A DNA stretch of 60,570 bases from Zarea fungicola (taxonomy: Eukaryota > Ascomycota > Sordariomycetes > Hypocreales > Cordycipitaceae), in contig FWCC01000076.1 of the NCBI GenBank assembly GCA_900169235.1, positions 1 to 60,570 of the forward strand, given 5' to 3'. How positions within the stretch are numbered: the stretch's first letter is position 1; the number at the start of each line of letters is the position of its first letter. The position numbers and the translations under genes were made by a program. Of the stretch, positions 3,870-50,529 are shown piece by piece. Below the pieces are notes generated by a model that searched no databases, was not told the DNA's origin, and saw only the letters and a program-made list of their open reading frames with translations.

Positions 3870-5997
3870 TGTGAGAGGTAGGGCTGGAGGCCCTGTGAGC
3901 GTTGTAGTACATGTCTGAAAACCCTTTTACTTACTCTGAGAGTTCAATGTTTGAAATGGAAATGCCAAGGATTTTACAGCTCTGGTGAATGGTGTTCGAG
4001 GGTGGTATTTCTAATGAGGAGAAGTACGGCTGGGTGAGGGTAATATAGTCACTGGAAAGTCTTAACTTCACCTAATACATGCATTTGAGCTCATATCGCA
4101 CTTATCTAACGCGTCGGCTATTGAGACAAGGGCAAAAACTGGACAATTCTTTTACGAAGAGCCTAGACTTGATCTATGGATACCTAGGTGGATGTGTTGT
4201 CACCACGTGCTCCAGTAAGCTTACAATTAACCTTTAGAAGTAAACCTGAGAGACGTCCTTCATGTAAAAGGTCAATCGCTCTCACATTGTATAGTACTAT
4301 CAATTTTTCGGGGTCATACGGAGTCCGGAGTTGTTGCTGGTAGGTCGAAGATAATGGGCCCATTACTTATCTGTAAAGGTGTTGCCACGTCATCTTGTAT
4401 TACATTGAACCACCTATTAACACTGTAATCTTGAGTTTTGACTCGGACTTTTCGTATTCACTCAATTTCGCTGTAGCACCTTTACAGTTTCAGGACACCC
4501 TGGTCGATGATGCATCGTGCTAGTAAGAGTGCTCGAACTGAGTCAGAAGCGGCCAAAATAGGCAGAGCTGTAAAGCTCTTTTTGGCAGATTCTAGCCGAG
4601 TCGTTGCATTCTAATTCGTCCAGAAAGTCTGTCTGCCCGAATAACTCAAGATCAAGGTCCAGGTCACTAACCAGTCTGCCCGGGCTGGGGCTTAGCGTGG
4701 TTGCACCGCTTTACACGGTTGAGATTCGGCGCGGTGGCGTTGATCATTCTCTCGGTAGGTACCGCACATTATGCGCAGTGATGGGTCAAGCTAAGTGGTT
4801 GTCAATGATGGCGGGACTCCATTACAGCCAGCAATTCTCTAGAAATGTTGCGCAAGGCGTGATTATCCACTCTTCAAGGGGGTCGGCTTTGGCGGAGCCC
4901 GCGCTTTCGCAAGGAAACCACATAGTAACTTAACCTTGATGCCCAGGGCACCATTAAGGGCTCCCTCCATAGCTCCTTTTTCTATCCAATCGACTCACTC
5001 AATTCCATGTGTAATTCCTGTTCTGCGTGACAAGAAATCTCCAATTGTAGGTGGACATAATGGTTCAAGCGCCGGGAAACTGTATACAGCTTACGAGGCT
5101 GTTTATGGGTCTGGCTGACCATGACGAGGATTGAGAATAAAAGAGCCACAAATGATTTTCCCATTGCCTTCGCAAATATAGCGATAAGCGAATATCAACA
5201 GGCAGGAACGCAGATGAGGCAAAATGCATAGGAAAGCTGCGCCTGACTCACATACAATGTTCATACAAAGTCCGAGACGCAGAATACCACTGCAAGAACT
5301 TGGCGTATAATGACTCAGCAATGCAATGGATACACCGGTTCTACTTGGGAGACACGTGCCTTCGGAAGAAGAGACGATTGGCGGATAACTTCGTAGTAAT
5401 CTTTCTTTTTCTGGTGTCATTATGAGGCCTTTTGGAGGCTAGTTATGCCTCGAAGTTGAGCGGCGTGGTTGGTTAACGCCAACTCATTTCCGGCGCACGC
5501 GGTTCATAGGTAATTGTTTAATAATTGTTGCTTGGCCGGCGGTGGAAACAACTGTTACATGCAAGCTAAAAGTAAACTCCAAATTCCAGTTAAATTCTAA
5601 TGCCCATGTAAGATTTTAGTACCAGACCCTGTCGCTCATCAGTATAACGGCACCGAACAGCACTGTGTCATCCTGGAGGTATGTGATAAGGCTATTTTTT
5701 CGGATTATACCGAAGACTAGGGTGGGAATCACGACATTACCCGTCGGCTGATGTTAGGACCCGCACCGAACACCCGGTCTACATCTTCTGAACTGTGTAC
5801 AAGTAGGGCCAATTGTTCCCGCTTAAATGTGCGTAAATCTTCAACAGTAGTTACTTACAAAACGTTGAGAAGAAAGAATTATCCATCTTGGCACCTGCCT
5901 TCCCCTCAGACCGCCGATAGAAGTAAGGGGTTCAAACTTCGATATATATCCACCATCGTCGAGAACTGACCATCTCCGAGAAAACACAAAGTTAATC
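3870..5997. other. intergenic, nothing recognised
   Basis: More than 2 kb without a supportable gene. A plus-strand frame at 4604-4933 (109 codons) has no signal peptide, introns or family motif and is not called. Confidence 0.5.
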
Positions 5998-6627
5998 ATG
6001 CTTTGGTACAAGACAATTACGGTATTCAGCGCCATTATCGGCAGTGTACAGGGTGCACCATCAGTTGAGCGCGATAGTGAAGTCGTGACTCTGGAAGACC
6101 GTGCCCGAGTCACGAATGCAGGAACTATTGTTGCTATAGTTGGAGGCATCGCGGCCTCCGTTGCACTGGGTCATGCTTTTGAAGGACATGGAGACCTTAT
6201 TGCAGGAGCATGGGCGGCTGCTATTGTCGACCAGCTTCACCCAGTCGGTGTTGTTGCAACAGACGCTCTGTGGGTACCAGATAATGGCCAAAACGGTCTT
6301 GTTTGCTGGACGGTAGATGCCGTCTTCTCCTTTGCCGGCCCTAATGCTGCTGCAAACGCCGCCAGTTTTGCCAATGCCGCGAGGAACCTTTTGCATAAAC
6401 GCGGCCTGGCCGCCAACTCTTATCATGTCTATCGCTCCGGTATCGAATTTCCAGCCAATCATACCGTCTTTGGATCCTCTCTCGAAGATGACGCCAGCGT
6501 GGAGGCTAGGAATATTGGCTGGTGCAGCAATCCTGGGTTTGATTTCACGCACAACCAAGACAATGCGGCTCTTTGCCTGCCTCAGATTGTCAGCTTTCCT
6601 CCCAACAACAAGAGAAAGTGTCAGTAG
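5998..6627 (+). CDS. putative secreted protein (209 aa)
   Basis: A single-exon gene. Residues 1-19 form a signal peptide ending in VQGA, followed by a short charged stretch and an Ala/Gly-rich hydrophobic segment (about residues 42-62, TIVAIVGGIAASVAL) that could be a second membrane or amphipathic helix. Four Cys lie in the mature protein, three of them in the last 50 residues. An NHT sequon is present. No family is recognised; the glycine-rich hydrophobic helix after a signal peptide is unusual for a small effector and could indicate a membrane-active or lipid-binding protein, but that is inference. The ATG at 5998 is preceded by AATC and has no better upstream alternative. Confidence 0.65.
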   Translation: MLWYKTITVFSAIIGSVQGAPSVERDSEVVTLEDRARVTNAGTIVAIVGGIAASVALGHAFEGHGDLIAGAWAAAIVDQLHPVGVVATDALWVPDNGQNGLVCWTVDAVFSFAGPNAAANAASFANAARNLLHKRGLAANSYHVYRSGIEFPANHTVFGSSLEDDASVEARNIGWCSNPGFDFTHNQDNAALCLPQIVSFPPNNKRKCQ

Positions 6628-7708: not shown

Positions 7709-8494
7709 TTAATCTAACGCAAAAAATTCCTCTAAATCTTCAGGAAATCCACCATTTACCTCATCGCCCCAATCATACACCAGCTCCTCATCCTCATCAT
7801 CCAGCTGCCCGAATGCGGCGCCCTTCACGTAGCTGCCATGGGAGACATCTTCATTTCCCATCTTGACCCGAATTTTAGTCAAACGATACGCGAAAATATA
7901 GTCGGTCGAGCCGCTGAATCCTGTCATCATGATTTGATTCCTGCCGAGGCTCGTTTCGGGGCCGACCTCGACTGGCCCACCAAACGACGTCGCATCTGCC
8001 TTGAGCTCGATGGACGTCTCACTCGAGGTGCTCAGCTGAGTTTTAGCCTTTGGATTTCGCGCGATTTTGATGCCCGTGATGAGATAGATTGGCTTCCGAT
8101 GGTTCGTCACTGTCAGGTATGCCTGCACACCTGGATGCAGCACGGCCTGGCCGATGTAAACGTCGTCAGGCACGAAGTATCGCGTTTCGAGCTGTCCAAA
8201 TTCCAAGCTCTCAATGTTTGACTGCATCTGACTGAAACTCATCCCACCGCCCACCACTTGCATACACTTGGCCCATATTCCAATCTTGCCATTCTTGGTC
8301 TGATCGTAGACGGTGTGCCAGCCTATTTTCTGGCCCTCATACACCTTCGCGGGCACTTTGACATCCATCCTCGCCACCGGACTCTCTGGGTTCTTGGGAT
8401 CTTTGATCAGACGGCCGAGTACCACGAGGTTGCTGTCTGCAGGTATGTCCCAGTTTGGAGCAGGGATGTAGGTAGCGGTCTTGTTGAGCGACAT
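7709..8494 (-). CDS. fungal gasdermin-like pore-forming protein (HET-Q1/RCD-1 type)
   Basis: A 261-residue single-exon protein. Its length, N-terminal motif (APNWDIPADSNLVVLGRLIKDPKNPE) and lack of signal peptide or transmembrane helix match the fungal gasdermin family typified by HET-Q1 of Podospora and RCD-1 of Neurospora. Those proteins cause incompatibility cell death by permeabilising the plasma membrane. About residues 1-228 would form the pore-forming domain. The last ~33 residues are very acidic and end FFALD; in HET-Q1 a short C-terminal segment is removed by the subtilisin-like protease HET-Q2 to free the toxic form. A protease gene of the same class lies directly upstream on the same strand (557 bp away), the arrangement reported for many fungal gasdermin genes. 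Family assignment is by motif recall, not a search. Confidence 0.8.
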   Translation of the reverse strand: MSLNKTATYIPAPNWDIPADSNLVVLGRLIKDPKNPESPVARMDVKVPAKVYEGQKIGWHTVYDQTKNGKIGIWAKCMQVVGGGMSFSQMQSNIESLEFGQLETRYFVPDDVYIGQAVLHPGVQAYLTVTNHRKPIYLITGIKIARNPKAKTQLSTSSETSIELKADATSFGGPVEVGPETSLGRNQIMMTGFSGSTDYIFAYRLTKIRVKMGNEDVSHGSYVKGAAFGQLDDEDEELVYDWGDEVNGGFPEDLEEFFALD

Positions 8495-9051
8495 GCTTTC
8501 CTTTCCGCGGCCGAGTTACAGGCTTCTAAATACGTATTAATCGGGTATTTTTTCTCGCTGTATGAGTGTTGAAATATGTAGGCTCTCTGGCATGTATGTT
8601 GGATGGAAAACTGTACCCCGCAAGGCAGCGACATGGCTGACATCTCATGACACGAATCCTGCGCCGCAGTCGCTACATATGCACTCCAGCCTGACCTGCG
8701 GCAGAAGAGGGTGCCTCAAATTGGCCGAATGCTGCGTCTTTCTTACTTAGCAACTGCGCACATACCATGCAACATATGCAGGGGTGGCTTCAGGTGATTA
8801 CAGCTAATACCACCACCCGGAATCATGACAATGATGTATGAAAATGTCAGCAGACAGCAGTAACGTCTTTATTCTACAAAGCTTCCATTGTGGTGGATTA
8901 ATTATCGGTTCTATTTTATTGCTTGCACCAGAGAAGAAAATTTAATAGAATTTAATGACACAACGTCGCCCAGTGGACTTTTACCCACTCAGTACAGTGT
9001 ACATTATGCCTCCGAATCGTCTACTTGTGCGTTTTAAATCCCCAAATCACA
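8495..9051. promoter_or_regulatory. spacer between protease and gasdermin genes
   Basis: 557 bp separate the stop of the protease gene from the start of the gasdermin gene. It must hold the gasdermin promoter and the protease 3' UTR. No specific site was recognised. Confidence 0.4.
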
Positions 9052-11997
9052 CTATGGCTTGTACAACAGGGTAGCAGTGACCTGTTCCAATATACCATTA
9101 TTTTCCACGTCATCCTCTTTCAGAAAATCCCATGGCAGCAAGCTCATGCCCCCGGTTTCGTTGGCTTTCTGCATGTGTCTCTGCAACACCTTTAACATGC
9201 CGCTCATTTTGTTCAGCTCCTGGGGCACCTTGCTATACTCTATCAAATCGGGTTTCTCATAGGCCCTGACTGCGACGCGCACGAAACTGAGCAAAATGGC
9301 AGCGAGGCCGGCAGCAGTCGGTGCAGCGTAAGATGTCCCGGAGATGTGTGTTGCTGTCCGCACCAGGTTGCCGGCTGGAGCCATGATCTCGACGCCCTCG
9401 CCAAACGCGTGCAGAATGGCAGACGACTCGTTTTTGGGTGGATTAAAGGAAGAGAAAACGCCGAGACCGTCTGTTGAGCTGACGCCAAACACAAATAACT
9501 CTGTGGCTGGCCACGCCATCTCTCTGTTCGCGCCGTCATTGCTCGTTGCGGCGAAAAATAGTGGCGGTGTGGAAGTCTTGAGGGCAGATTCAATGGCGGA
9601 GCCGACGATCTCAATTCGCCTCTCAAAGCCGAAGCTCATGACAATCATGTCGACCCCCCAGGTCTCCGTTGCATACTTGATTGCCTAGTTTGTCCGCTGA
9701 TCAGTACCCTTCGTCCGTGTGATATCCTCGCAATATTGAGTTGACTCCTACCTCTGCTACGTTTTTTTGTACTTCTATGGCCCATCTACTGGTACCGAAG
9801 TCTTTTCTGCTTTTGCAGACTCTTGCGACGTAAAGTCTACTCCTTGGACACACGCTTAAGATAATCTGTCCCACATATGTACCGTGTCCGTCAGTATCAA
9901 TGTCCCATTCCGTAGCGTCGTGCTCTGGGCTGCAGAATGATCTACATTCTTTGCTAGCTAGGCGGTCCTCGTTCTTATACGCATTTTGGAGGGTTTCGCA
10001 GAGCTGGAAACCAGTATCAAGAACAGCAACCTTGACAGTGCCCAGGTCTTGCTCTCTGGACAATAACGACTGAATACGGGGGGCGTCAAAAATCTTTTGC
10101 GTTTGCCTTAGATAATTCTTCCACAGATTCCCATACTTTCTCTTCTCGGAATCCATCTCCGTATCATCTGGGCTATCCGTTTCGACGACGCCCAGAGATG
10201 GTATCTCACTGTCAAGCCGATGCAGCGGGACTTCATAAATTTGTGACAGAGAGTCTCCCAGAGGATAAATAACTCTTTCAAAAATATACCTGCGAGTGGC
10301 GGTGACTTGAGATCCAATTCCTACGCCTTCAAGACGGCCGTCTCGCAGCTGAACCGGACTCAGGCAAGCTAGAACTGCTCGGAAACAGCCTTCTGGTATT
10401 GCACTAGCGCATGACCTATCCCTATAGCCTTTATTATTGTCGTATTTCCATTTATCATAAGCTACCCAGGCAGTGGCGCATCTATCCATGCCGGGAGTAA
10501 ATGGTACATGGGTTGTACCACGCAGCGTTTCGAGCAACATAATACCCAGATTGAGAATGGCGGGAACCGGATGCACCTTGTCATTCCATCTTACCAGCTG
10601 ATTCCCTTCAGACTTGAAAAAGGAAACGTTCAGATACGGCTTCGTAATATCGAATTGCCCAGCCCGCACCTGGAAACAGATGTTGGTGTCTAACATGATT
10701 GCCTGCAAGCTGGGTTCATTCGCACCGCAAATGTGGAAGAAAAATGTGGCGAGGATAAAAGATAGAATAGTACGTTCTCTCATATCGGTTCTTGATATGC
10801 GTGATGTGTGTTCGGTTCCAAATGCTTGGAGGAGGTAGTCTAGAGATTTAAACTCTAAATCGGGTATCTGTAGAAAGGTTGGCGCCCCCCGTTCATATCG
10901 AAGATTGCGTAGCTTTTCGTCAAATATGGTAATATTCGGGATAATTCTTGCTCCCACGTCGTCGATGATGCGGCAGAGATCGTTTTCAATTTCGCCTTTC
11001 GTTGTTTGTTCACGTCTAATAGTGCCAGTTAGTGTTGTTTCGCATCTGGCTTTTCTATTATTCCCTCTTCGTTTTTTCAAACTAGATGACCAACAAAAGC
11101 AGCCAAAAATGCACAGAGAGACACGTACTGGGTTTGGACAGTTACGTCCATGTGCTTCCAGAATAAAGCGCCAGTACTGGTAGGGAAAAGCACCTGAAAA
11201 AGAGCCAGATTCCGCCCCAGTTCGCGCCGGGATAAAGATTTCAACTCAAATCGCTGATATCTTGTAAGGTTGAGCTTTATGGGTCGGTTCAAAAGGACGT
11301 GATTGTTGCATTGACATTTCCAGCTCCTTTCCAGTGCCTTGAAGAGCATTGTGGAGAATATGCGTAAATCTTTAGCAGGATAGTCAGTGAAACGTAGAGG
11401 ACATGTTGACATTGACTGAGTATCCGGCCGTAAGCCGACTATTCTGTTGACGGCATCCTCCAAAGCAACAAGTATATTTGTACACTTCTCAGGTTTCGAA
11501 GAGTGGAGGCGAATAATCAGGCTGAGGCTCGCAAGCTCAGCCTCGGGAAACAGTGAGCCGTCGGACGGCAGAATACGGTGCAAAGCTCTTAGTTTCGGAT
11601 AAGCACGATTCATTTGCTCGTCGAAGCCAAGCTGTCGACGGATGGCACGGTCAGAGTCGTTCTTGAGCGCAAATGAGTTCTCGAGATCGTTCAGTACTCT
11701 GGAGAGATTTTTTGTGGCAAGCCGATGTTCAACGCTGGAGCTTGGGTCAAAATCATAGCCACTCAGCGCCTCCAGAAGAGAAAGAGCCCTAATATGGAAA
11801 TGTAAATAGAAATCTCGGATGAATTTTACTTCTTCATCCCATCGTTCCTCGGATGGGCGGCAGGGGTCGTCAAATGCTAATTTGGCGATAGCAGCAAACG
11901 TCGGCAAGACATCCTTCAAGACTCCAAAGAGATAGTATGCCTCCTCGGCCTCTGGTGAACTCGACAGCCAGTCTATAATCTTGATAACAGGCCGCAT
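9052..11997 (-). CDS. subtilisin-like (S8) protease with DUF7580-like N-terminal half (HET-Q2 type)
   Basis: Three exons: 11129-11997, 9752-11081 and 9052-9684. The introns are 47 nt (11082-11128) and 67 nt (9685-9751), and splicing gives 943 residues. A TGA in frame upstream fixes the ATG at 11997. There is no signal peptide, so it should act in the cytoplasm. Residues about 205-535 look like DUF7580, with a WKCQCNNH signature and the LNLGIMLLETL helix. Residues about 640-880 are a peptidase S8 domain with complete catalytic set: D645 (VAVLDTG), H689 (DGHGT), N782 (ATSNDG) and S851 (SGTSYAAP). It sits upstream of the gasdermin gene and divergently 173 bp from the C2H2 gene. Known biology: such proteases activate partner gasdermins by C-terminal cleavage. 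Here DUF7580 takes the place of an NLR-type sensor; its ligand is unknown. Confidence 0.85.
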
Positions 11998-12170
11998 TTC
12001 GTCTCGAACATATTGAGCAAGGAGGGCTTTGCGTCAGCCCGATCCTCAACTTGCCAGCCTTATTAATGCTTTTGTGGATCGCTTTCTGCACATCTTAGAC
12101 GTGCGGGGTTAACAGTGGGACAAATGATCCGGATCGGCTCGTCCCGCAGCTGCTGATCATCATCATCGAC
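11998..12170. promoter_or_regulatory. 173-bp divergent promoter region
   Basis: Only 173 bp lie between the start codon of the protease gene (minus, 11997) and the first ATG of the C2H2 gene (plus, 12171). The two transcripts must share this stretch for promoter elements, which suggests co-regulation. No known operator was recognised. Confidence 0.55.
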
Positions 12171-15100
12171 ATGAGAGAACAGACTAGTCAGGATATGTCT
12201 GAACAACCAGGAGAGCTTCCAGTTACGACAGATGAGCTGCTCGTTGAGATTCACACGCTGGCTGGCAGATGTAGGGATCTGCTGCACGAGCTTTGCGATG
12301 AGGTTGGGAAGACTACAGAGTCGGTGGGAGAAGCAAGAAAGCAGCTGATAAGCGTCAATATCTGGGCCAAATCAATAGGTGTATTTGAAAAGGGGCAGAA
12401 CTCACTCGTTTCCAAGTTTAAAGGCTATGTTGAGATGAGCATACAGACCAAGCAGCTGCTGCTCAGTCTCAAATCAAGCCTCGGTAGGTTGTCGTTAATC
12501 GCCATCTTTCGCGGCGCGCACAGGCAGTGAGGTTCTAATTTTGAGTTAAAAAAAATAGAAAACCAAGCCCATTATAACGAAAGAGAAACACACCAAGGCA
12601 ACGGCAGCGATGGCGACAGTGGCAGCGACAGCGAAAGATCTTCCGATCGATCTTCAACCATATACAGGCTCGCCGACGAACCAAAAAGTCTGGACAGATT
12701 ACTTGCTCCTGGGCTGTGGGCAGAAATCCACAGCACAATCACGAGCTTACGGCAGCTTGGAATCATAATGAACCGGGGAAGTGCACGACATCGGCAGGAT
12801 CGTGTTGCTAGATTCATCAGCTTGGAGGCAAATAAAGATCTCTACAAAATGTGGAAGGAGTTCGCTGAAGACAGAGCACGCCACAGTTTCCCCCAAGCTC
12901 CTACTGTCGTTGTTGAAAGAATAGGGGAATCTATTGCTTACAGAAGGAGCAGATTCCAATATCTTAAGCGTCATAAGATGAAGAAGAAACTTCCCGAAAG
13001 CTCCAGACAAAGAGCCTCAATATCGCCAACCAGTGGCATGCAAGCTGCGACAGAAGCGGATGTTGCGCCTGTGAAGATATTGCAGCAGATAACTGCAGCT
13101 CACCTGCAGCAAGTCATGGATAGATCAGTTTTTAATGAGGGAACAGTCTTGTCTAAAACAGTGACGACACGATATGAAGCTCCGGAGCGTGCGGAGTCAG
13201 GTATATCCACGACAATGGTGGCCGGTCGTTTGCCAGCAATTCCAAAGTTTACCGGTGATGGGACATCATTTGAGTGTCCATTTTGTTGCATGATTTGTCC
13301 GGTAGAAGAAGTTGGTACAGAATCGCACTGGATGAGCCACCTGATTCGCGATCTTGAACCCTATTTCTGCATTTTCCCGTCGTGTTCCAGCCCATTTAAC
13401 AACGGCGAATCATACACTTCTTGGGCGGCTCACATTAGGGAAGATCATATGGCGCCAAAGTGGTGCTGTTGGTATTGCCAAACTGCAGATGCTCCTGCCA
13501 AACAGTTCTTCTCAGAAGGTGCCCTCGACGACCACCTGAAGACAAATCATGACGAAACCAACGATGGCATTCGATCTAGCATTGTCAAACATAGCAAGCT
13601 GGCTGGCAAGTCAGCTCTTGACGACTGCCCTTTCTGCGGTTGCTATCCGGAGGAAATTGAACAAAAGTTTCTGGGCCGTGACAATGATAAGGCTGCAGAC
13701 GCACTCGCTCAGCATATACGCGATCATTTTTACTCCATTGCTTTGCTAATGTTGCCTATGAACTATGACACAAAAAGCCAAAAGGAGAGCAATAGTTTAA
13801 AGTCGGAGGCGGATAGGGGCGACGAACTGTATAGGGATACGAACGGGTTTGACGTTTTGATAGGGCGGCAGACTGCTGAAAGTCTTCAATGTGGTAGATC
13901 CGAATGTGACTGCAAGCGCCCCGCCTCGTTCTTTTCCGGTGATTGGTCACGCTTCTCGGAAACAGTTGCGCTGGAACGGGAGAATGCCATTTGTGACAAT
14001 TTTGACGCTCCATATTTTAAGGCAATGCCCAAGGATGGTGAATGGAGTTGCTGTCTTCCGCCGTCCACCCATCCAGCTATCGAAGAGGACATGACGCTGA
14101 GAAGTTACTTTGGTACTGAGGTATTCGACGAAGCAAAACGTCAGCTTGACCCGAACCCGACATATAGCGAAGAGCGCAGCGAATTTTTTTCTAATGCGGA
14201 AAACGTTCGTCAGAAAGTGGAAACAACTGCAAGTACTGTGAGTTCTTTGCCCGATGGGCAAGCTCTCGTGGGGCTGAATATCGGAAGAGCACATGGTGTC
14301 GTTGAGGGTGACTGCTTTGCGCTATATCGAGCGGATACGGCTTTCACGCACATTGTGGATTTTAATTCCTCTCTGGCTACTGTCAAAGTAATTTCTGTCG
14401 ACGAATTTGTTTCCATGAGCGTTCTCGGTCGGAGTACTGATAAAGTTCAAAGTGGCTGCAAGGCTATTAAGCTGCGTGATATCTTCCGTCTTTTTGTACT
14501 ATCGCCTCGGTCAGCAATTCTCATCACAGATGGCTCTGAGATCCCCAAACCAATGATGCAAGAGCTTCAGGACAATATTGAGGCAAAAGGAAAGCTTGTT
14601 TACTTCTCAGAGTCTGATAGCTCATTCTTTAGAATCAATCTCGGATCATCTGGTGATTTTGAAGTCTCTTTCACCTACGAGGATCAGAAAGCAACGCTTA
14701 CGGCAGAGTCAATGAATACTTTACTCTCGTATTTGTCACACTTGGCAATTTACTACAACTTGCTCGATCTGGGTAACTATGGAACTTTGTCTGGCATATC
14801 TGCTAGTTTTTTTGGTTCTGAGCCAAGAGTACCCGGCCCAAGCGAGCTCGCAAAAAGCGATCGTCTAGACGTACCCGATCACGGTGTGGTATCGATCGAA
14901 ATTCGGAACTCGACGGACACGGATATTTATTTTGTGGTACTGGATCTAGAGCAGTTATGGAGTGTGCATACACTTGTCCCCAAGGAAGAGACTAGCGAGA
15001 TTCTACATGCTCATTCTAATCGGCTCATCAAAATTCGGGTGCTGATGCCGACTAAGAGCATGGGAACTGTCGAGCCAGAGGGCTTTGAGACATTTCTTGT

Positions 15101-15293
15101 TCTAGCCACCACTAGCAATCAGTACAACTTCCCGCAAGAGACATTGCCAATTCTTGAAAAGACGATGAGTTGGAAATCACCGCCCCTTCTAAAGCAAGCG
15201 CATGGGGAAGGTGGAATAGCTATGGCAGCAGAAAATTGGTATATACAAAGGTTGGATGTGCGTATAATCAACGAAAACGTAGTAGGGTCGTAG
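12171..15293 (+). CDS. acuF-like C2H2 zinc-finger protein with a caspase-protein-type C-terminal region
   Basis: Two exons, 12171-12483 and 12598-15293, joined by a 114-nt intron (GTAGGT...CCAAG, phase 1), give 1002 residues. Residues 1-105 hold the helical motif NIWAKSIGVFEKGQNSL typical of fungal proteins annotated 'oxidoreductase acuF-like C2H2', followed by an acidic Ser/Asp run. The ERIGESIAYRRSRFQYLKRH segment is also diagnostic. Residues about 331-481 carry Cys/His pairs of degenerate C2H2 fingers (CPFC, CCWYC, CPFC with spaced His). From about 661 to 985 the sequence changes character: NIGRAHGVVEGDCFALY and a late EIRNSTDTDIYFVVLDL segment resemble the region that follows the p20 domain in fungal caspase-like proteins (DUF4384-like). 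No caspase His/Cys dyad is visible. The fused architecture is the odd point. The tail assignment is by recall and less certain than the head. Confidence 0.75.
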
Positions 15294-17722: not shown

Positions 17723-19765
17723 TTATTGACCCTCTGTCAACACCCTCGTCCAGTCAAACTTCCTCCACTCCTTCCCAAAGCCCTCCACCCTCTTGTCGCC
17801 TCTCTGCCATCTCCCCTGCCTCTTGGCGACACCCATCTCTGCATCGACAATGCCCGCAATCACCTCGCGCGCAAAGACATCGCCCCTCGGCCACCGCCCC
17901 GCGTCCTCGACGATGTGGCCCAGTCCACCATCCAGCGTAAACCAGACGTGAAAGTACGGCATCTCCTTGGCCAGCAGTCGCCGAAAGGCACTTCGTCCCA
18001 TGCCGTCGCGCGCCTTGGCACCCGTGTCAATAATTTTCTTATGCTGCGACCACTCTTCGTCCGCAGACAGAAACGCCTCGCGAAAGTACGCGGGCGCCAT
18101 GGCCCCTTGGTCATAGGGAATGGGGACGGCGACCATGGCGGCGTGCAAATGGCGCTGCGGCGCGGCGGCGTTTTCGTAAAAGAGCACCTCCCTGCCCTGG
18201 GCGTGGTACAAGCGGGTGAGGCTCTTCATAAAGTTGCGCATCTCCTCCCACTCGTCGTCGTCGCACTCGAGCAGGTTCTTCCTGTGCGTGGTGGGGACAA
18301 TCACGGCGCCGCCGGGGCTGACTTCGGGCTCTGTCGCGAGCGTCAGGAACACGCGCGTGCCGAGGGCGAGGATCGGCGCGAGCGGCGGCTGCTGCGTGTC
18401 GTCGTGGTGGCAGAGCGGGCACGACTCGAGGATGCGGTTGACCTTTTGGAACTCGGAGACGGCCATGTTTTTGAGGTTCATCTCGCTCTTGTGCACGCGC
18501 TTGGCCAGCTTCTCGGCGTTGTCGTCCATGTATTCCAGGTCGTCGTCGAATTTGCCGTCCTTGGCAATGCGCTCGGCCAGACGCATCCCTTCGCCGCCGG
18601 CTTGGCCCTTGGTGCGGCGCTCTTCCCGGAGCATGTCATCAATGGTCATGTCTTCGTTGGCAACGACGGTGCCGCGCTCGCGGCCGCGCTTGTTGGTCAC
18701 GGCTGTGACTTCGTTGCGGATGGTGCCGGCGAGGAGGCGGCTGTCCTGCCCGCCGATGACGACGGATTGGGCGGCGGTGGAGGGGGCAGCGAGGTTGGCG
18801 GCGGCGAGGTTGTATTCTGCTTCGAGCTGTGCGGCATTGGGGGCACGACGAAGCTTGGCCTTCATCATCTGGGCGCGAAGGCGATTGAGCGCCGTCTGAT
18901 CGATGGGGCCGGCCGCTACGATAGCAGGGGCGGGTGCTGCTTGTGCGCTTGGGGATCGCGATTCAGGCATTGACTGCTTCTGTTGAGCCTTGCGCTCACT
19001 ATAAAACTCGCCCGTAGGTTTCTCCTTCATCGTATAGCCCTTTCCGTAACTCTTGGCTCGGTCAAGTTCTTGTTTCTCCTCGCGCGCGTCGTCGAAATCT
19101 TGTAGGCTGCCGAAGCGCTCAATGGCAATTTCCTCGACGGGACGGCCTGATTCTTCGGCGAGACTGTAGACACCGCGGAGTTTTGTCATGCGCCAGCCGG
19201 AGCCCGAGTCGCCGATTGTGTAGTTGATTTCGCGCTCCTTTGGCTCCGGGTCGGCCGCGTCGGTAGCTGTCTGGCCAAGACCACGGTTGATCTCGCGGGC
19301 GTGCATGACGCGCTCAGGTTCTTTCGGTGGAGTCTTTTCTTTTGGCGCTGCGCGGTGGACGTGCTCGATGTCTAGCGCAGAGGGAGCAGTCATCCATGAA
19401 TCCCGTACCGGGGCCTCTGCTTTCGTTTCTGTTTGCTGGCTGGAGGGCTTGTCAGCGTCGGAGCCTCGCCGCCGATGTCTGTCGCTGCGGTCGCCGTCGC
19501 CGTCGCGGTTGCGATCCCTATGGCTGTGTTTTGATCTCCGCTCGTCATCTCCGTCGCGTGACCGTCGTCGTCGCTTGTGTCTGTGGTCATCATCCTCGCG
19601 GTGCCCATGTCGATGTCGACGGCCGTGCTCGTCTCTCTGTTTGTCGTCGTCGCGATGGTGATGCCTATGTTTCTTGCGATCGTCGCGGCTGCGTTCTGCC
19701 TTGTCGCGTTCTGCCTTTTCAGCAGCGAGCTGCTTTTCGAAATCGTCGAGACCATCCATGGCCAT
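17723..19765 (-). CDS. Cwf19-like pre-mRNA splicing factor
   Basis: A 680-residue single-exon protein. The start is placed at 19765 (MAMDGLDDFEKQ) because 27 further codons upstream are open but lack family character. Residues about 10-150 are an Arg/His/Asp/Ser-rich low-complexity region like RS domains of splicing proteins. The middle carries the Cwf19 helices (EREINYTIGDSGSGWRM, then the YTMKEKP region). The C-terminal ~230 residues are the CwfJ_C_1/CwfJ_C_2 pair, with a CPLC-x-H zinc site and an HIT-like core (PQRHLHAAMVAVP). Cwf19 associates with the spliceosome and its relatives with intron-lariat turnover. It is the clearest housekeeping gene in the window and its coding region is more GC-rich than its surroundings. 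Confidence 0.92.
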   Translation of the reverse strand: MAMDGLDDFEKQLAAEKAERDKAERSRDDRKKHRHHHRDDDKQRDEHGRRHRHGHREDDDHRHKRRRRSRDGDDERRSKHSHRDRNRDGDGDRSDRHRRRGSDADKPSSQQTETKAEAPVRDSWMTAPSALDIEHVHRAAPKEKTPPKEPERVMHAREINRGLGQTATDAADPEPKEREINYTIGDSGSGWRMTKLRGVYSLAEESGRPVEEIAIERFGSLQDFDDAREEKQELDRAKSYGKGYTMKEKPTGEFYSERKAQQKQSMPESRSPSAQAAPAPAIVAAGPIDQTALNRLRAQMMKAKLRRAPNAAQLEAEYNLAAANLAAPSTAAQSVVIGGQDSRLLAGTIRNEVTAVTNKRGRERGTVVANEDMTIDDMLREERRTKGQAGGEGMRLAERIAKDGKFDDDLEYMDDNAEKLAKRVHKSEMNLKNMAVSEFQKVNRILESCPLCHHDDTQQPPLAPILALGTRVFLTLATEPEVSPGGAVIVPTTHRKNLLECDDDEWEEMRNFMKSLTRLYHAQGREVLFYENAAAPQRHLHAAMVAVPIPYDQGAMAPAYFREAFLSADEEWSQHKKIIDTGAKARDGMGRSAFRRLLAKEMPYFHVWFTLDGGLGHIVEDAGRWPRGDVFAREVIAGIVDAEMGVAKRQGRWQRGDKRVEGFGKEWRKFDWTRVLTEGQ

Positions 19766-20359
19766 GTTGGTACAAGCTGGCGATGTGTGTAGAAATCTGG
19801 TGATGAAATCCGGTGGCAGGCAGCTAAAAGTTTGCCCCACTGTCACGGTTGCTGCTTTGGGTCAGCTCTGGCCGTGTAAGCGGCGCAGAGAACAGTAACA
19901 AATATGCTCACCCGGCCACTGGAAACATAGTAGGATTAATTTCCTAGACTTCATTGTGTATATGGTGAATGATGGCACTATACTGATTTATAGGTGTTTA
20001 CGGTTCCGATGGTTGCTGTAATATCCATTGCAACAGATGACCACCGAATATGTCTTCATTGGCTGCGTACAATCTGTTACTCGTTTGATCACGGAAATTG
20101 CGCGGATATGAAAATGAAGCCATGATTGATAATAGCGCTCGTCTCGACCGCAAAAACACCACATCAATTGAGGCTCGATAGTTGGGGAACTTGAGGCCGG
20201 CCACTGCTCAGCAAGTCAGGCTCCCCCAAACCGGACCACGGTTTCTGTAATGATCGAATCCATCCTCTTTGCGCAGCCACCACGTTAGCTTGTGACCTAA
20301 CTCTCTCCCCAGAGCAGCTTGCTAAGTGTAACGATGGCTTAACGAGCAAATCACAGCTA
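19766..20359. other. cwf19 upstream region, holds repeat copy C
   Basis: The probable promoter of cwf19, then a diverged repeat (19994-20149) and the insertion site of the tandem LTRs. No gene. Confidence 0.5.
19994..20149 (+). repeat. diverged repeat, copy C
   Basis: It matches 20992-21172 at roughly 70-75% at the two ends (GTGTT.ACGGTT and ATGATT.AT.A...CTCGAC). Read on the minus strand both copies give a related peptide (S-V-V then C-x-N-x-x-Y), so they may be remains of one gene or transposon. Confidence 0.45.
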
Positions 20360-21943: not shown

Positions 21944-22638
21944 AATTGCAGAGCTATCGAGAATGGAGAATAGGGATAGGAGAAGAAATAAGTGCGGTCG
22001 CTGAGTGGCAAAGGGGGAGTTATATATACTTGGCTTTGCTTGCTCTAGTAGAGCGCGGTGGCAAGGATCAATAATCTCATCCCATTACCTACCTATAAAG
22101 GTGTTCTTTTTTCTTGCCAAGCCAATTTATTGGCTTGTGAATCCTTGCCGAGACAACACAATGCATCCGTTCTATCATTACAGGACCCAAAGCGTCCGTG
22201 AAAAGCTGGCAAGAGAAGTATGCTGACGTGAGAGGGAGTTTAAAACAGGGTATTCGTAACTAGTAAGGATATACACAGTGGACTACTACACGGTATTTCA
22301 AGCAATGGTAATATCAAGCATTGATAGCGAAGCTATCTAGCCCATTCTAGCAGCTTGCCACGAAATATAAGTTCAAGTCAGACCTCAATCTAGCAAGTCT
22401 TCTCACGTCATATTTTAGGCTTTAAACCATCAATCAGCATTAGTTTAGATTCTTGATTGGTCCACTAGTACTTTGGCAGTATAGGGCTAGACTGTGGGCG
22501 ATTTTGCAAAGGCAATTGCAAGCTGATATAAAATCTCTAAAGGAACCATACCAACGTAGAACTTCTCATCCTTACTCACCGGCTTTGTCGTTGTAACCAA
22601 CAACATCACTTTACCATCAAATTCACTCAATCAAAAGA
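21944..22638. other. divergent spacer between two secreted-protein genes
   Basis: 695 bp separate two divergently transcribed secreted-protein genes. No gene is seen; it must hold both promoters. Confidence 0.5.
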
Positions 22639-23211
22639 ATGCGCATCTCTCTATTTCTCTTCTTTATGCCATTATTGGCCCACGCCGATATCTCGCTGCC
22701 TGATAATGCCATTGAAGGGTTCGCGCTGCACCTGGTAGATGAGGCTGGTAACACTACCTATGTTCACCAGTCAGAGTTCGACAAGCATGGCATATCTACA
22801 GCGGTGGAGGACACCGACCCCACTGAGACCGAGTCTGTCTCAAGGCGAGCTCTCCCACCAGGAGATTCAATCACCTGCGAGGGGGAAAAACCATTCGACA
22901 TTGGGGATCTACATCACGGCTTGATCAAGTTGATGGAATACCTCAGCTGTGGCTACACAATCATCACGAACCCAAGCGCCAAGTACAAATATGTCGTGAT
23001 CAGCCACTACGAAGGCTCCTCAGTTATCTACATTTGTAACTATAGTGAAAAGTACCGGACAATTAAAGGGCCGCAATTAGTTGCCTTTTTAGGGCATGTG
23101 TTTGATTACTGCGGCCAGCGGAACATTGCAGGGTGGTACAAAGAGACGGTGTACAATATGGCCTGGGGGTATACAAACAGCAGGAACAGCTTCTGTGGAC
23201 CGGCTCAATAA
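22639..23211 (+). CDS. putative secreted protein (190 aa)
   Basis: A single-exon gene. Signal peptide residues 1-16 (MRISLFLFFMPLLAHA). A pro-like acidic region ends in a dibasic RR at about residues 69-70, then a folded-looking domain with five Cys (at ITC, SCG, ICN, YCG and FCG) and many Tyr/Trp follows. The end (YICNYS...AGWY...NSFCGP) is reminiscent of small secreted proteins annotated only as hypothetical in hypocrealean fungi. A polypyrimidine-rich leader and CAATC context precede the ATG. Host interaction would be inference. Confidence 0.7.
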   Translation: MRISLFLFFMPLLAHADISLPDNAIEGFALHLVDEAGNTTYVHQSEFDKHGISTAVEDTDPTETESVSRRALPPGDSITCEGEKPFDIGDLHHGLIKLMEYLSCGYTIITNPSAKYKYVVISHYEGSSVIYICNYSEKYRTIKGPQLVAFLGHVFDYCGQRNIAGWYKETVYNMAWGYTNSRNSFCGPAQ

Positions 23212-45734: not shown

Positions 45735-46344
45735 GATTGCACGATTGACTTGAGAGATGAATCCAAATTGAAATTGATAAAGAAAATGGCTCTTGAAAAT
45801 GGAGCAAGTAATGATAAGATTAGTGAATTTTAACTAACGCGAGCATGCGTACTTCAAGTACTTTGAAGAGAATACTGCAGGTTGAGCTCCACCGAACCGT
45901 ACCAGGCGATGATTCCCGACAACAGGATTGCGCAATTTTCGGATAAACAGACACTGTTGCCGAGGAATCAGTTCATCCCGAATGAAAATCCATTACCTGA
46001 TTATCCTTGAATTGAGTCCCCAGGTCAGCTGCTCACAATCTGGTACGTTGCTTCGTGTAATTCCTATTTAGGCAATGCTTTCCTTAGCCGGGAGTGGCGG
46101 TCGCCTGAGAAAAATGATTGAGAATGAGCCGTACAAGTTAGCCGACAGTGTTTTGACTATTGTTACAGCCAGGTACCACGAAAACTACTCCACACAACTT
46201 GGACAGTGATAACTAGCCCATGGTATATCCGTAGGTGGAGGTGTGCCATCCCAAATGGTATGCAGAGTTCGACAAGTCCAAACCTAATGCTCGATTGCAG
46301 TTACAGCACCTCTCGTTTTTTAATCATTGTTTTCATGCAGTAAA
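45735..46344. promoter_or_regulatory. divergent promoter region, cupin / DUF3445 genes
   Basis: 610 bp between two divergent start codons. No motif was recognised beyond that layout. Confidence 0.4.
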
Positions 46345-47547
46345 ATGTTGCTAATTGAAACATTCTACTTTCATGGAATTCGGGGAGCGGCTGCTTGTGC
46401 GGTGTTTGCGTTTGTCTTTGCAGTGTATAAAGGTTTACGGAGCCCAAAGCAAGTGCACCAATTTGTTAAAGGCGGCGGCAAGGCAACGTGTGCAGAGAAG
46501 AGACAAAGAACAAACGACTTCAAGACTCCAACTCCTCCACCATATCCTGTGTGGTCCATTGAATCGACAAAACCTCTCCCGTATCGGGCTTTCAGATATG
46601 GGCCAAAGTACAATGTGACCATGGGACTTCGTTCCATCAACCCGATTGAATGGATCGAGCTGGACAACAATTTCCCCAGGTTCCATGCAGACAAAGCAGT
46701 GCGCCTCAGAGAGCGCAGCGACAAGTGCGTAAAGACTCATCCCGATGCCTTTCCCGCGGCAATTGAGCTGCTAGAGGAGCTTTCAAACTATTTGCCGGCA
46801 CGCTACCCTAGCCTCTACAAGCGAACAGCAACTGGAATTGACAACTTATGGTCGGGCGAGTCTTTCAACATCGAAGAGCGCCCGCTCCGTGAGGACCCAA
46901 TGGCCATTTGTGCGCGCCTCGTACAAGACGATTTGGCGCTCATGTTTGAGCAGCCCGATGGACAGTACCGACTGCTCGCCGGTGCCATTTTGTTGGCGGG
47001 ATTCTGGAGGCTCTCTGACAAATTCGGGATGACATTGTCAAGCATCCACACTTCGGGCGAAGTTCCCCATTTCCGCGAGAAACTCGAATCTGGCATGATG
47101 AAGTTTTTCCAACGGCTAAAATCCGAGACTTTCTACGCGCGGAATAACTACTTTATTCAAGTCGACGACTGCCTGCCGTGGAGTCCCAGCATTGGCAACG
47201 AAGACGACCCAGTTGTGAGCTGGGGAACAGCAGAGAAGAACAAAGTCATCAATCACCACTGGTTTCGCTCCGAGAGACAAACGCTCCGCAGGCTTCCCAA
47301 GACTGGTGCGATTTGTTTTACAATTAGAACGTATTTTCACACAGTGACCGACATCGTCAAGGAAGACTACGTTCCCGGGCGACTTGCCAGTGCGGTTCGC
47401 AGCTGGGACAATTGGGTTTCTCACTACAAGGGCAGGGAAATGTATGGGGACGTCCTGTTGGAATACCTGGACAAGAAGCATGAGGAACAGGTACAGAATG
47501 GCTTGGATCTCAGCAAAGAGGACGACGTTCGACAGTATCCGTGGTAA
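46345..47547 (+). CDS. DUF3445 protein, heme-dependent oxidative N-demethylase-like
   Basis: 400 residues, single exon; the ATG at 46345 is chosen because the longer frame begins with TTG. Residues about 10-31 form a hydrophobic segment (GAAACAVFAFVFAVYKGL) that probably anchors the protein to a membrane, with the rest in the cytoplasm or lumen. The body matches the DUF3445 (HODM-like) family: MGLRSINPIEWIELDNNFPRF near the start and QTLRRLPKTGAICFTIRTY near the end. A bacterial member is a heme enzyme of PAS-type fold that demethylates dimethylamine to methylamine and formaldehyde. Many fungal members are uncharacterised. Next to a copper amine oxidase it could supply primary amine to it. 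Confidence 0.8.
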   Translation: MLLIETFYFHGIRGAAACAVFAFVFAVYKGLRSPKQVHQFVKGGGKATCAEKRQRTNDFKTPTPPPYPVWSIESTKPLPYRAFRYGPKYNVTMGLRSINPIEWIELDNNFPRFHADKAVRLRERSDKCVKTHPDAFPAAIELLEELSNYLPARYPSLYKRTATGIDNLWSGESFNIEERPLREDPMAICARLVQDDLALMFEQPDGQYRLLAGAILLAGFWRLSDKFGMTLSSIHTSGEVPHFREKLESGMMKFFQRLKSETFYARNNYFIQVDDCLPWSPSIGNEDDPVVSWGTAEKNKVINHHWFRSERQTLRRLPKTGAICFTIRTYFHTVTDIVKEDYVPGRLASAVRSWDNWVSHYKGREMYGDVLLEYLDKKHEEQVQNGLDLSKEDDVRQYPW

Positions 47548-48226: not shown

Positions 48227-50529
48227 ATGGTTTCCCACCACCCACTAGACCCGCTGTCCGCGGCAGAGATTCAGGTGGCCGTCGCAGTCGTGAGGGCCAC
48301 ACATCAGAATGTTTTCTTCAACATCGTCAACCTCCACGAGCCGCGCAAGGCCGAAATGACCAAGTGGCTGGAAAATAGGTCCTCCAGTGTTCGGCCCCGT
48401 CGTGTTGCAGATGTATGCGTTATTGCACCAGGCGGTAGAGTCGGTGATGGACTTGTTGATCTTGCCGATAAAAGGATTGTTCAATGGAACTGGGTTAGAG
48501 GGAAACAACCAATTGTAAGATCTGAAATGGACTTCCCGAAGACGCATAATTACTTACCTCAATGCAGATTACTCTGGAAGAGTTGCAGCTAGTTGAGCAT
48601 GTTGTTCGCACAGACCCAAAGGTTATTGAGCAATGCGAGATTAGCGGCATCCCCCGAGAGGAGATGCACAAGGTGTACTGCGATCCCTGGACAATTGGCT
48701 ACGATGATCGCTTCGGCAGCAATGTGCGTCTTCAGCAGGCACTGATGTACTTTCGTCCCAATTTGGACGACTGCCAGTATCAGTACCCGCTGGATTTCTG
48801 CCCCATATACGACGCCGACAAGCAACGCATTATTCACATTGATATCCCCCCTACGCGGCGGCCACTCAGGCGGGAGCCGCCCATCAACTACCACTCTGAT
48901 GCCATCAAGGCGCAAGGCGGCTTTCGCACAAACTTGAAGCCTCTTGAAATCTCGCAGCCAGAGGGCCCTTCGTTTTCTCTAAATGGCCGCGAGATTGAAT
49001 GGCAAAACTGGTCGTTTCACATCGGTTTCAATTATCGTGAGGGAATTGTCCTGAGTGATATCGGATATAATGACAAGGGCAATCGCCGCTCAATTTTCAA
49101 CAGGCTTTCCTTGGTGGAGATGGTTGTGCCGTAGTAAGTTCCGTCTGTGTTTAAATCTGAGGGGCTTTGGCGACTGACAAAACTTAGTGGCAACCCTGAG
49201 CACCCTCACCAAAGAAAACATGCCTTTGATCTAGGCGAATACGGCGCCGGCTACATGACCAACAGTCTCAAGCTTGGTTGCGACTGTAAAGGCTATATTC
49301 GCTACTTGGACGCTGAATTGCCCTCCCGCGATGGCAGTGTTCGGCATGTCAAGAACGCTATCTGCATTCACGAGGAAGACAACGGCATCCTGTTCAAGCA
49401 TACAGATTTCAGAGATGACTCCGTTATTGTCACACGAGCCCGGAAGCTCATCATCCAGCAAATCTTCACAGCCGCCAACTACGAATATGCCATTCAGGTA
49501 AGCCCAGGTGTCGTCGAATCTTTAGGATATATCGCTGACCATTCGTCTGCTATAGTGGATATTCCATGTAAGTTTCTCATATCAAATTCTTCATGGATGG
49601 TGATCAAGAGCTAACAATATCACAGCAAGATGGAACAATTCAGCTCGAAATTAAGCTTACCGGAATATTAAATACGTACTCGATTGCAGACGGTGAAGAC
49701 TCACATGGATGGGGAACCGAAGTTGCTCCTGGTATGTACGGTACCACACCGCCTCTGATCCTTCGCTAATGACGGTGCAGGTGTAAATGCACATAATCAC
49801 CAGCATTTATTCTGCTTGCGAATTGACTCCAATATCGATGGCCCCAACAACACCGTGTTTATGGTTGATGCGGTGGCCTCCGATGACCCCGTTGGCAGCT
49901 CCAACAACAAATATGGCAACGCATTCTACGCCAAAAAGACCAAACTTAGCACCACCGGGCAAGCCAAGACCGATTATAATCATGCTACATCCAGAACGTG
50001 GGATTTATGCAACACGAACAAACTTCACCCGTCTAGCAAAAAGCCAGCTAGCTACAAGCTTGTGAGCCGCGAAGTACCTGGACTGCTACCTAAGCCAGGT
50101 TCACTGGTATGGAAGAGAGCAGCATTTGCTCGGCATGCGGTTCATGTCACCAAGTGTCAGTGTTGACTCGATTTTTTCGGCTTGTATTCACTCCATCTGT
50201 GCTAACTAGTTGTAGACCGTGATGATCAACTCTGGCCTGCCGGTCGGCACGTTCCCCAGACATCAGGAGAGACTGATGCGGACGGCTTGGGTGAGTGGGT
50301 TGGCAACGGATCGGAATCCATTGAGAATGAAGATATTGTGCTGTGGCATACTTTTGGATTGACTCACTTTCCTGCACCGGAAGATTTTCCTATTATGCCC
50401 GCTGAGCCTATGACGGTTCTGCTGCGCCCACGAAACTTCTTCCAGAACAATCCCGCCATGGATGTTCCACCACAAAGATGCATCACTGCTAGCCAAGTCG
50501 CCGGCAAGGGCTCAGTGTCCCGGTTGTAA
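48227..50529 (+). CDS. copper amine oxidase, peroxisomal
   Basis: Seven exons: 48227-48514, 48568-49133, 49188-49497, 49556-49567, 49626-49731, 49781-50155 and 50216-50529, giving 656 residues, the usual length for this family. Exon 4 is only 12 nt (W-I-F-H) and is needed to bridge AIQ to QDGTIQLEI. Key residues are the catalytic base D299 (HAFDLGEYGAG), the topaquinone precursor Y383 in NYEY, and copper ligands H434 and H436 (NHQH) and H603 (LTHFPAPED). The C-terminus S-R-L is a peroxisomal targeting signal type 1. The enzyme oxidises primary amines to aldehyde, ammonia and hydrogen peroxide. It follows the DUF3445 gene on the same strand. Confidence 0.95.

Follow-up and report, generated by a model that had tools for sequence, protein, structure and literature searches.

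A gasdermin, a DUF7580-subtilase and a C2H2 protein as a candidate three-component cell-death module encoded at seven loci of one Zarea fungicola genome

The analysis of the window, that is, the whole stretch of 60,570 nucleotides at positions 1 to 60,570 of contig FWCC01000076.1 (assembly GCA_900169235.1) from the fungus Zarea fungicola, revealed three neighbouring genes encoding a gasdermin, a subtilase that carries a DUF7580 domain and a large C2H2 protein with zinc-finger-like units. The three products probably constitute a pyroptosis-like death module that divides sensing, proteolysis and pore formation among three separate proteins. All seven gasdermin loci found in the genome (7/7) also encode a subtilase with DUF7580 and a protein related to the C2H2 protein, both within 10 kb of the gasdermin. 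A first-pass annotation of the window had proposed a gasdermin and its protease with a third partner, and the six further copies in the same genome lend support to that grouping. The three genes of the window are real, and their features are as follows.

7709..8494, minus strand: gasdermin gene, single exon, 261 residues
7712..7810, minus strand: short acidic C-terminal tail of the gasdermin (net charge -14), putatively autoinhibitory
7811..7825, minus strand: KGAAF motif (residues 224-228) where the core meets the tail, predicted region of protease cleavage
9052..11997, minus strand: DUF7580-subtilase gene, 922 residues, exons 11997-11129, 11015-9752 and 9684-9052
9286..10036, minus strand: subtilase (S8) catalytic domain (PF00082; D623/H667/S829), spanning intron 2
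10241..11053, minus strand: DUF7580 (PF24476), kinase-like, by Pfam
11998..12170, no strand: spacer of 173 bp between the divergent protease and C2H2 genes, from start positions
12171..15293, plus strand: C2H2 gene, sensor-like, about 1015 residues with one intron (gene model)
12171..12483, plus strand: N-terminal segment of the C2H2 protein (exon 1), alignable across the seven C2H2 proteins
13338..13727, plus strand: three Cys/His zinc-finger-like units, with invariant columns in 7/7 paralogues
14172..15290, plus strand: copy-specific C-terminal region of the sensor-like protein, with a weak FlgT_C-like piece at 14268-14351

The source assembly (43.1 Mb in 456 contigs) sets the scope of the analysis, which is one fungal genome, and all counts taken from it are lower bounds; over-divergent gasdermins may have escaped the queries used. 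With the window gasdermin as query, the genome returned the protein itself and relatives at the loci C54 (51% identical), C258, C144, C119 and C451 (expectation value (E) 0.19), and the C144 gasdermin as query added C196 (E 0.022), where an open frame was also seen on reading the locus. The window C2H2 protein as query matched eight places at E ≤ 1: all seven gasdermin loci, its own among them (C196 at 0.08), and C363. The latter was rejected as an eighth locus: it matches the C2H2 query at E 1.6e-3, but tblastn found no match to any of the three proteins in its 10-kb stretch (E ≤ 0.01). S8 genes and C2H2 genes were counted by frame and not by annotation. Each of the seven loci has an S8 match above the Pfam cut-off in at least one frame, and all have the catalytic Asp, His and Ser residues; genome-wide there are at least 36 S8 matches, 11 of them inside the seven loci. 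Under random placement of seven gasdermins, as many C2H2 genes and 30 S8 genes (an assumed number), a null that ignores block duplication, the expected number of gasdermins with both partners inside 10 kb is 0.000316, and among 200,000 simulated genomes 60 contained one doubly flanked gasdermin and none contained more. A fairer null for the linkage is the duplication of whole blocks.

Sequence, profile and fold all identify the 261-residue protein as a fungal gasdermin. This agrees with the first-pass annotation, and the possible failure to match that had been reckoned with did not occur. The window protein matches RCD-1-1 of Neurospora (8jyz_A) at E 9.4e-5 (phmmer), and a profile built from six gasdermin paralogues of the genome reaches RCD-1-1 at E 3.9e-18, RCD-1-2 at 1.3e-16 and the HET-Q1 pore (9uv9) at 3.7e-9, with bacterial gasdermins at E 0.38 and 0.5. 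The AlphaFold model is modest (mean predicted local distance difference test (pLDDT) score 53.5, best blocks 70-84); in Foldseek, gasdermins fill the first 25 rows, RCD-1 being the best (E 9.7e-9), and each of the 12 rows at E ≤ 0.001 is an RCD-1 entry. A Pfam scan of the protein gave no family, and viral contigs scanned with the gasdermin alignment gave 19 pattern matches and no relative. In this alignment the C119 copy is represented by its second exon only, and the C451 copy was excluded from it and from the distance test described below.

A closer inspection of the C-terminal end of the six intact gasdermins showed an acidic stretch of 32-55 residues in every one of them (6/6), with a net charge of -4 to -18 after the KGA motif, following a basic core (net +2 to +8). 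The stretch is preceded by KGA or RGA in five of the six and by EAS in C196. In the window copy a cut at F228 would leave 33 residues. The acidic tail is thus putatively autoinhibitory and would be removed by the protease, cleavage being predicted near F228; the window gasdermin would then be expected to form pores and to kill the cell.

The gene adjoining the gasdermin encodes a protease with DUF7580 placed N-terminal to the subtilase domain, as had been annotated before. Its two introns are of the GT-AG type (11128-11016, 113 bp, with a CTAAC branch point, and 9751-9685, 67 bp), and the reading frame is continuous over the splices. Pfam identifies DUF7580 (PF24476) at E 1.4e-13 and the serine half of Peptidase_S8 (PF00082) at E 5.3e-8; the Asp/His half scores 0.03, below cut-off, and the catalytic triad is intact. 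In the other copies the automatic splice junctions are approximate, and the second of C54 and the third of C144 drop residues before the serine half. In its fold, DUF7580 comes out as kinase-like. The HRD motif carries the catalytic-loop aspartate of kinases, and since this aspartate is missing, as judged by eye in the alignment, from all ten DUF7580 domains whose rows cover the segment (10/10), the domain can be regarded as pseudokinase-like. Receptor domains (NOD-like receptor (NLR), ANK, TPR, WD40) were not found on the protease frames scanned in the window and the six other copies (the window protein, and 6 + 10 frames of the other copies, some short exon frames being left out).

DUF7580 occurs at ten places in the genome, the seven gasdermin loci and three others, and all ten domains have partners of the death type: seven stand with S8 beside gasdermins and three with HeLo. 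The last three have an MLKL-like architecture and lie at C112:114136-115776 (-), C315:226407-227672 (+) and C422:124321-125892 (+), the HeLo match at C315 being partial; these loci have no gasdermin. Conversely, HeLo was not matched in any scanned frame of the gasdermin-linked DUF7580 proteins.

The third gene is transcribed divergently from the protease gene, the two starts being 173 bp apart, as had been noted earlier. Its first exon (12171-12483) is followed by an intron from 12484 with the acceptor probably at 12558, 12531 and three others being possible. The alignment of the finger region of the seven relatives contains 14 invariant columns, ten of which are Cys or His (H50, C60, C65, H81, H86, C93, H115, H120, C146 and H179, numbered from 13191; the invariance of H50 rests on the splice junction chosen in C144). 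Of the two modules the first-pass annotation had assigned to this protein, the zinc-finger-like units stand and the caspase-like tail is unconfirmed. The 373-residue tail has FlgT_C as its best Pfam match (E 1.4e-3, 19.5 of 27 bits, below cut-off), a single chance-level row in NCBIfam (E 0.18), no PDB match at E ≤ 10 and no second place in the genome at E ≤ 1. Compared with the nine caspase-domain (PF00656) loci of the genome it gave a best phmmer E of 0.61, those loci carrying about 1.5 kb of flank, so that a distant tail could escape; PF00656 itself was not found by Pfam in the window C2H2 protein. The caspase-protein tail was consequently rejected.

The two ends of the C2H2 proteins differ in their constancy. 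Exon 1 of the window gene has no Pfam match at E ≤ 1, and none of the seven N-terminal frames scanned has a Pfam family above cut-off. The C-terminal part varies from copy to copy. In C258 the fingers and an NPHP3_N/NACHT domain (6.5e-33) lie within one uninterrupted frame of 893 residues, with ankyrins (5.1e-46) coming next across a strong intron (score 6.55); in C144 the fingers share one frame of 824 residues with ankyrins (2.2e-66); and in C451 the next frame carries TPR (2.1e-50) and DUF7779. The C196 protein is short. A constant part joined to exchangeable ends, in places of receptor type, is what would be expected of sensors, and the C2H2 proteins are read as such for this reason; among the roles of sensor, inhibitor or adaptor offered by the first-pass annotation, the frame shared with NACHT (C258) or ankyrins (C144) favours the first. 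NACHT/NB-ARC and repeats were not found by Pfam in the window C2H2 protein, which may work like an NLR but is not one; its C258 paralogue has both (NPHP3_N plus Ank). The C119 protein (C119:106233-108617, -) apparently continues into a long stretch of low complexity. The 589 residues scanned contain no Pfam family, and a segment close to the end looks ubiquitin-like by eye.

In the module proposed here the C2H2 protein would act as the sensor. The C-terminus peculiar to each copy (NACHT-ankyrin, ankyrin, in one case perhaps NB/TPR, otherwise unassigned) would perceive the trigger, and the common N-terminal and zinc-finger part would couple the protein to the protease. The DUF7580-subtilase would be a latent protease, whose pseudokinase-like domain may either hold the protease off or dock it to the sensor. 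After the trigger, the sensor would release or assemble the DUF7580-protease, which in its active form would cut the gasdermin near F228 with loss of the acidic tail, and the freed core would form pores in the plasma membrane, with death of the cell. Inferred in this scheme are how the C2H2 protein couples to the protease, where the gasdermin is cut, what the trigger is, which way the signal runs and which biological role the module plays, in defence or in allorecognition.

The arrangement of the genes bears on a different role for the C2H2 protein, that of a brake, either a transcriptional repressor or a protein inhibitor, which would silence the protease-gasdermin pair and whose loss would lead to death. 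Zinc-finger-like units next to an intergenic region as short as that of the window would suit such a brake, and so would the direct divergence of C2H2 and protease genes in five of the seven copies, with starts 173-389 bp apart (start codons guessed; the C144 protease start was not located). However, the finger region resembles DNA-binding fingers weakly (best PDB match E 0.11, of the Zif268 type; zf-C2H2_4 at E 4.1e-4, below cut-off, in one paralogue), NACHT and ankyrins in frame with the fingers make up the architecture of a receptor rather than that of a repressor, and at C144 and C196 the gasdermin gene lies between the C2H2 and protease genes. A brake is therefore considered unlikely.

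About as unlikely, and slightly behind the brake, is a conventional two-gene unit in which the DUF7580-subtilase both senses and activates, the C2H2 gene being a co-transferred and functionally independent receptor. Fungal gasdermin clusters have been described as two-gene units with the protease as sensor (PMC10197012), sometimes with kinase-like domains (PMC10197012, PMC12881547), and DUF7580 together with the extra N-terminal region could sense alone. Against this, a C2H2 relative is present at 7/7 loci although the copies have diverged strongly and been rearranged. A 200-residue finger fragment of the C119 copy as query hit six places in the genome at E ≤ 0.01, every one of them beside a gasdermin (6/6; C196 was missed), whereas a receptor that worked independently should turn up in other places as well.

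The pairwise identity between copies is 18-51% for the gasdermin (six copies), 24-54% for the protease core (seven), 22-46% for the fingers (seven) and 15-42% for the N-terminal part of the C2H2 protein (seven). The gasdermin is co-directional with the protease in two of the seven loci, the window and C54, which share the same order and are mutually closest in all three proteins. As the copies are 18-54% identical and differently arranged, the linkage has outlived a long divergence. For the six copies whose gasdermin is intact, distance matrices correlate well between gasdermin and protease (r 0.88, with 7/720 permutations as high), gasdermin and fingers (r 0.90, 4/720) and protease and fingers (r 0.87, 3/720), and in the three comparisons that involve the C2H2 N-terminal part r was 0.80-0.90 (2 to 10/720). 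That the seven loci are relics of block duplication, linked by descent and devoid of present joint function, is very improbable: the interrupted C451 gasdermin frame and the common order and mutual closeness of the window and C54 would fit it, but protease triads and Cys/His columns persist in 7/7 copies, and gasdermins that are as little as 18% identical, at loci of differing gene order, speak for long maintenance.

Several observations weigh against the three-component module. The linkage comes from one genome and could partly reflect duplication of whole blocks and not selection. Once the window-C54 pair is removed, r falls to 0.46-0.53 for the three main comparisons and to 0.23-0.64 for the others; joint descent is for this reason supported for the window-C54 pair and only hinted at for the remaining copies. 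The C451 gasdermin frame is interrupted once (C451:35380-36420, -), which may reflect a pseudogene, a sequencing error or an unrecognised intron. The link between the C2H2 and TPR frames at C451 passes through a poor splice junction (1.43), so that this fusion is uncertain, and four of the seven C2H2 proteins (window, C54, C119, C196) have a C-terminus without any family above cut-off. As for the protease, the fold model of DUF7580 is that of the C119 paralogue, in which the domain lies in one exon, the window domain being split by an intron; it applies to residues 287-549, has a mean pLDDT of 50.5 and gave no Foldseek match at E ≤ 0.001. Lastly, the N-terminal parts of six proteases and seven C2H2 proteins have no detectable homology (hhalign probability 0.1%), and a homotypic contact between them was discarded on the same result.

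The nearest described counterpart is the HET-Q1/HET-Q2 pair of Podospora anserina, which has in common with the window genes the gasdermin family, the short C-terminal tail and the S8 protease partner. According to the passages on this pair in PMC10989679 and PMC12881547, the S8 protease takes off about 40 C-terminal residues of HET-Q1 after F238. The size of HET-Q1 given in that part of PMC10989679 (278 residues) is similar to that of the window gasdermin, and the 40 residues left beyond F238 there compare with the 33 beyond F228 here. HET-Q2 appears in the same part as an S8 serine protease of 388 residues, against the 922 residues with DUF7580 of the window protease, and the NLR core that the first-pass annotation had attributed to it is not mentioned there. 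In these passages of PMC10989679 and PMC12881547, het-Q1 and het-Q2 are idiomorphs of one locus, whereas here both genes lie side by side, and, in contrast to that pair, a C2H2 gene accompanies every copy found. As to the DUF7580 half of the protease, presented earlier as new company for a gasdermin, proteases fused to kinase-like domains are already in print (PMC12881547).

Other fungal systems share single traits with these loci. About 63% of fungal gasdermins have been reported within 10 kb of an S8 protease (PMC10197012), and the seven loci resemble these Q2L clusters in having an S8 protease at that distance from the gasdermin (7/7). Some fungal pairs have receptor and protease fused into one protein; in mammals, by contrast, an NLR controls a separate caspase (PMC10197012). 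In Q2L clusters, including those with NLR-fused S8 or CHAT proteases, the receptor is described as sitting on the protease in a 'contracted' pathway, while here NACHT and ankyrins belong to the separate C2H2 protein. RCD-1-1/RCD-1-2 of Neurospora crassa are the best sequence, profile and fold matches of the window gasdermin, and their activation comes, in the account given in part of PMC12881547, from the meeting of two allelic gasdermins without proteolysis. The HELL-kinase architecture is likewise in print (PMC12881547). DUF7580 accompanies both kinds of effector in this genome. Its three HeLo proteins are the point of likeness to the MLKL-like fungal proteins in which HeLo or HELL is joined to a kinase or pseudokinase domain; the difference is that the gasdermin-linked DUF7580 proteins carry a C-terminal subtilase.

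Bacterial gasdermin-protease clusters have receptor, protease and pore-former on separate proteins. The same division characterizes the mammalian inflammasome, with its NLR, caspase and gasdermin D (PMC10197012), to which the loci described here are likened by architecture: they have a subtilase and not a caspase, a pseudokinase-like DUF7580 domain, and a C2H2 module in place of CARD or PYD. The arrangement is closer to animal inflammasomes than to the two-gene fungal systems described so far. It is about an even guess whether it represents a split inflammasome-like pathway, in which interchangeable sensors (of NACHT-ankyrin, ankyrin and other types) share a C2H2 coupling module that acts on the pseudokinase-protease and, through it, on the gasdermin, with DUF7580 as a pseudokinase switch in both the gasdermin and the HeLo (MLKL-like) branches.

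No counterpart of the C2H2 partner emerged from the literature searched. The main text of PMC12881547, of PMC10197012 and of the 2024 review PMC10989679 contains neither C2H2 nor zinc finger ('zinc' in the case of PMC10989679), and both terms are likewise absent from the passages of the 2022 NLR effector survey PMC9815663; the other 'three-gene cluster' in the passages of one review is an amyloid system. DUF7580 is not mentioned in the literature of 2023-2026 searched, the combination of gasdermin, C2H2, fungal and NLR gave only sepsis work for 2022-2026, and gasdermin with zinc finger and Ascomycota gave none for 2020-2026, the primary fungal gasdermin survey lying outside these searches.

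Elsewhere in the window, the frames at 5869-6627 (+) and 22597-23211 (+) resemble small secreted proteins by eye and have no Pfam match at E ≤ 0.01. A CwfJ-type protein (PF04676/PF04677) is encoded at 17723-19861 (-), with an open frame of 423 residues on the opposite strand, a haem-dependent oxidative N-demethylase alpha-like protein (PF11927, E 9e-89) at 46324-47547 (+), and a partial copper amine oxidase (PF02728, PF01179) at 48550-49134 (+).

Which stimuli switch on the death sensors of fungi has been named a major open question (PMC12881547). A separate modular sensor, if the proposed module is true, would provide a handle on it, since its C-termini could be swapped or used as baits, and the seven natural copies in one genome offer matched sets for tests of specificity. 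In that case fungi would also have a division of labour between receptor, protease and pore as animals do, and the uncharacterised DUF7580 would gain a function, that of a pseudokinase relay on the way to cell death.

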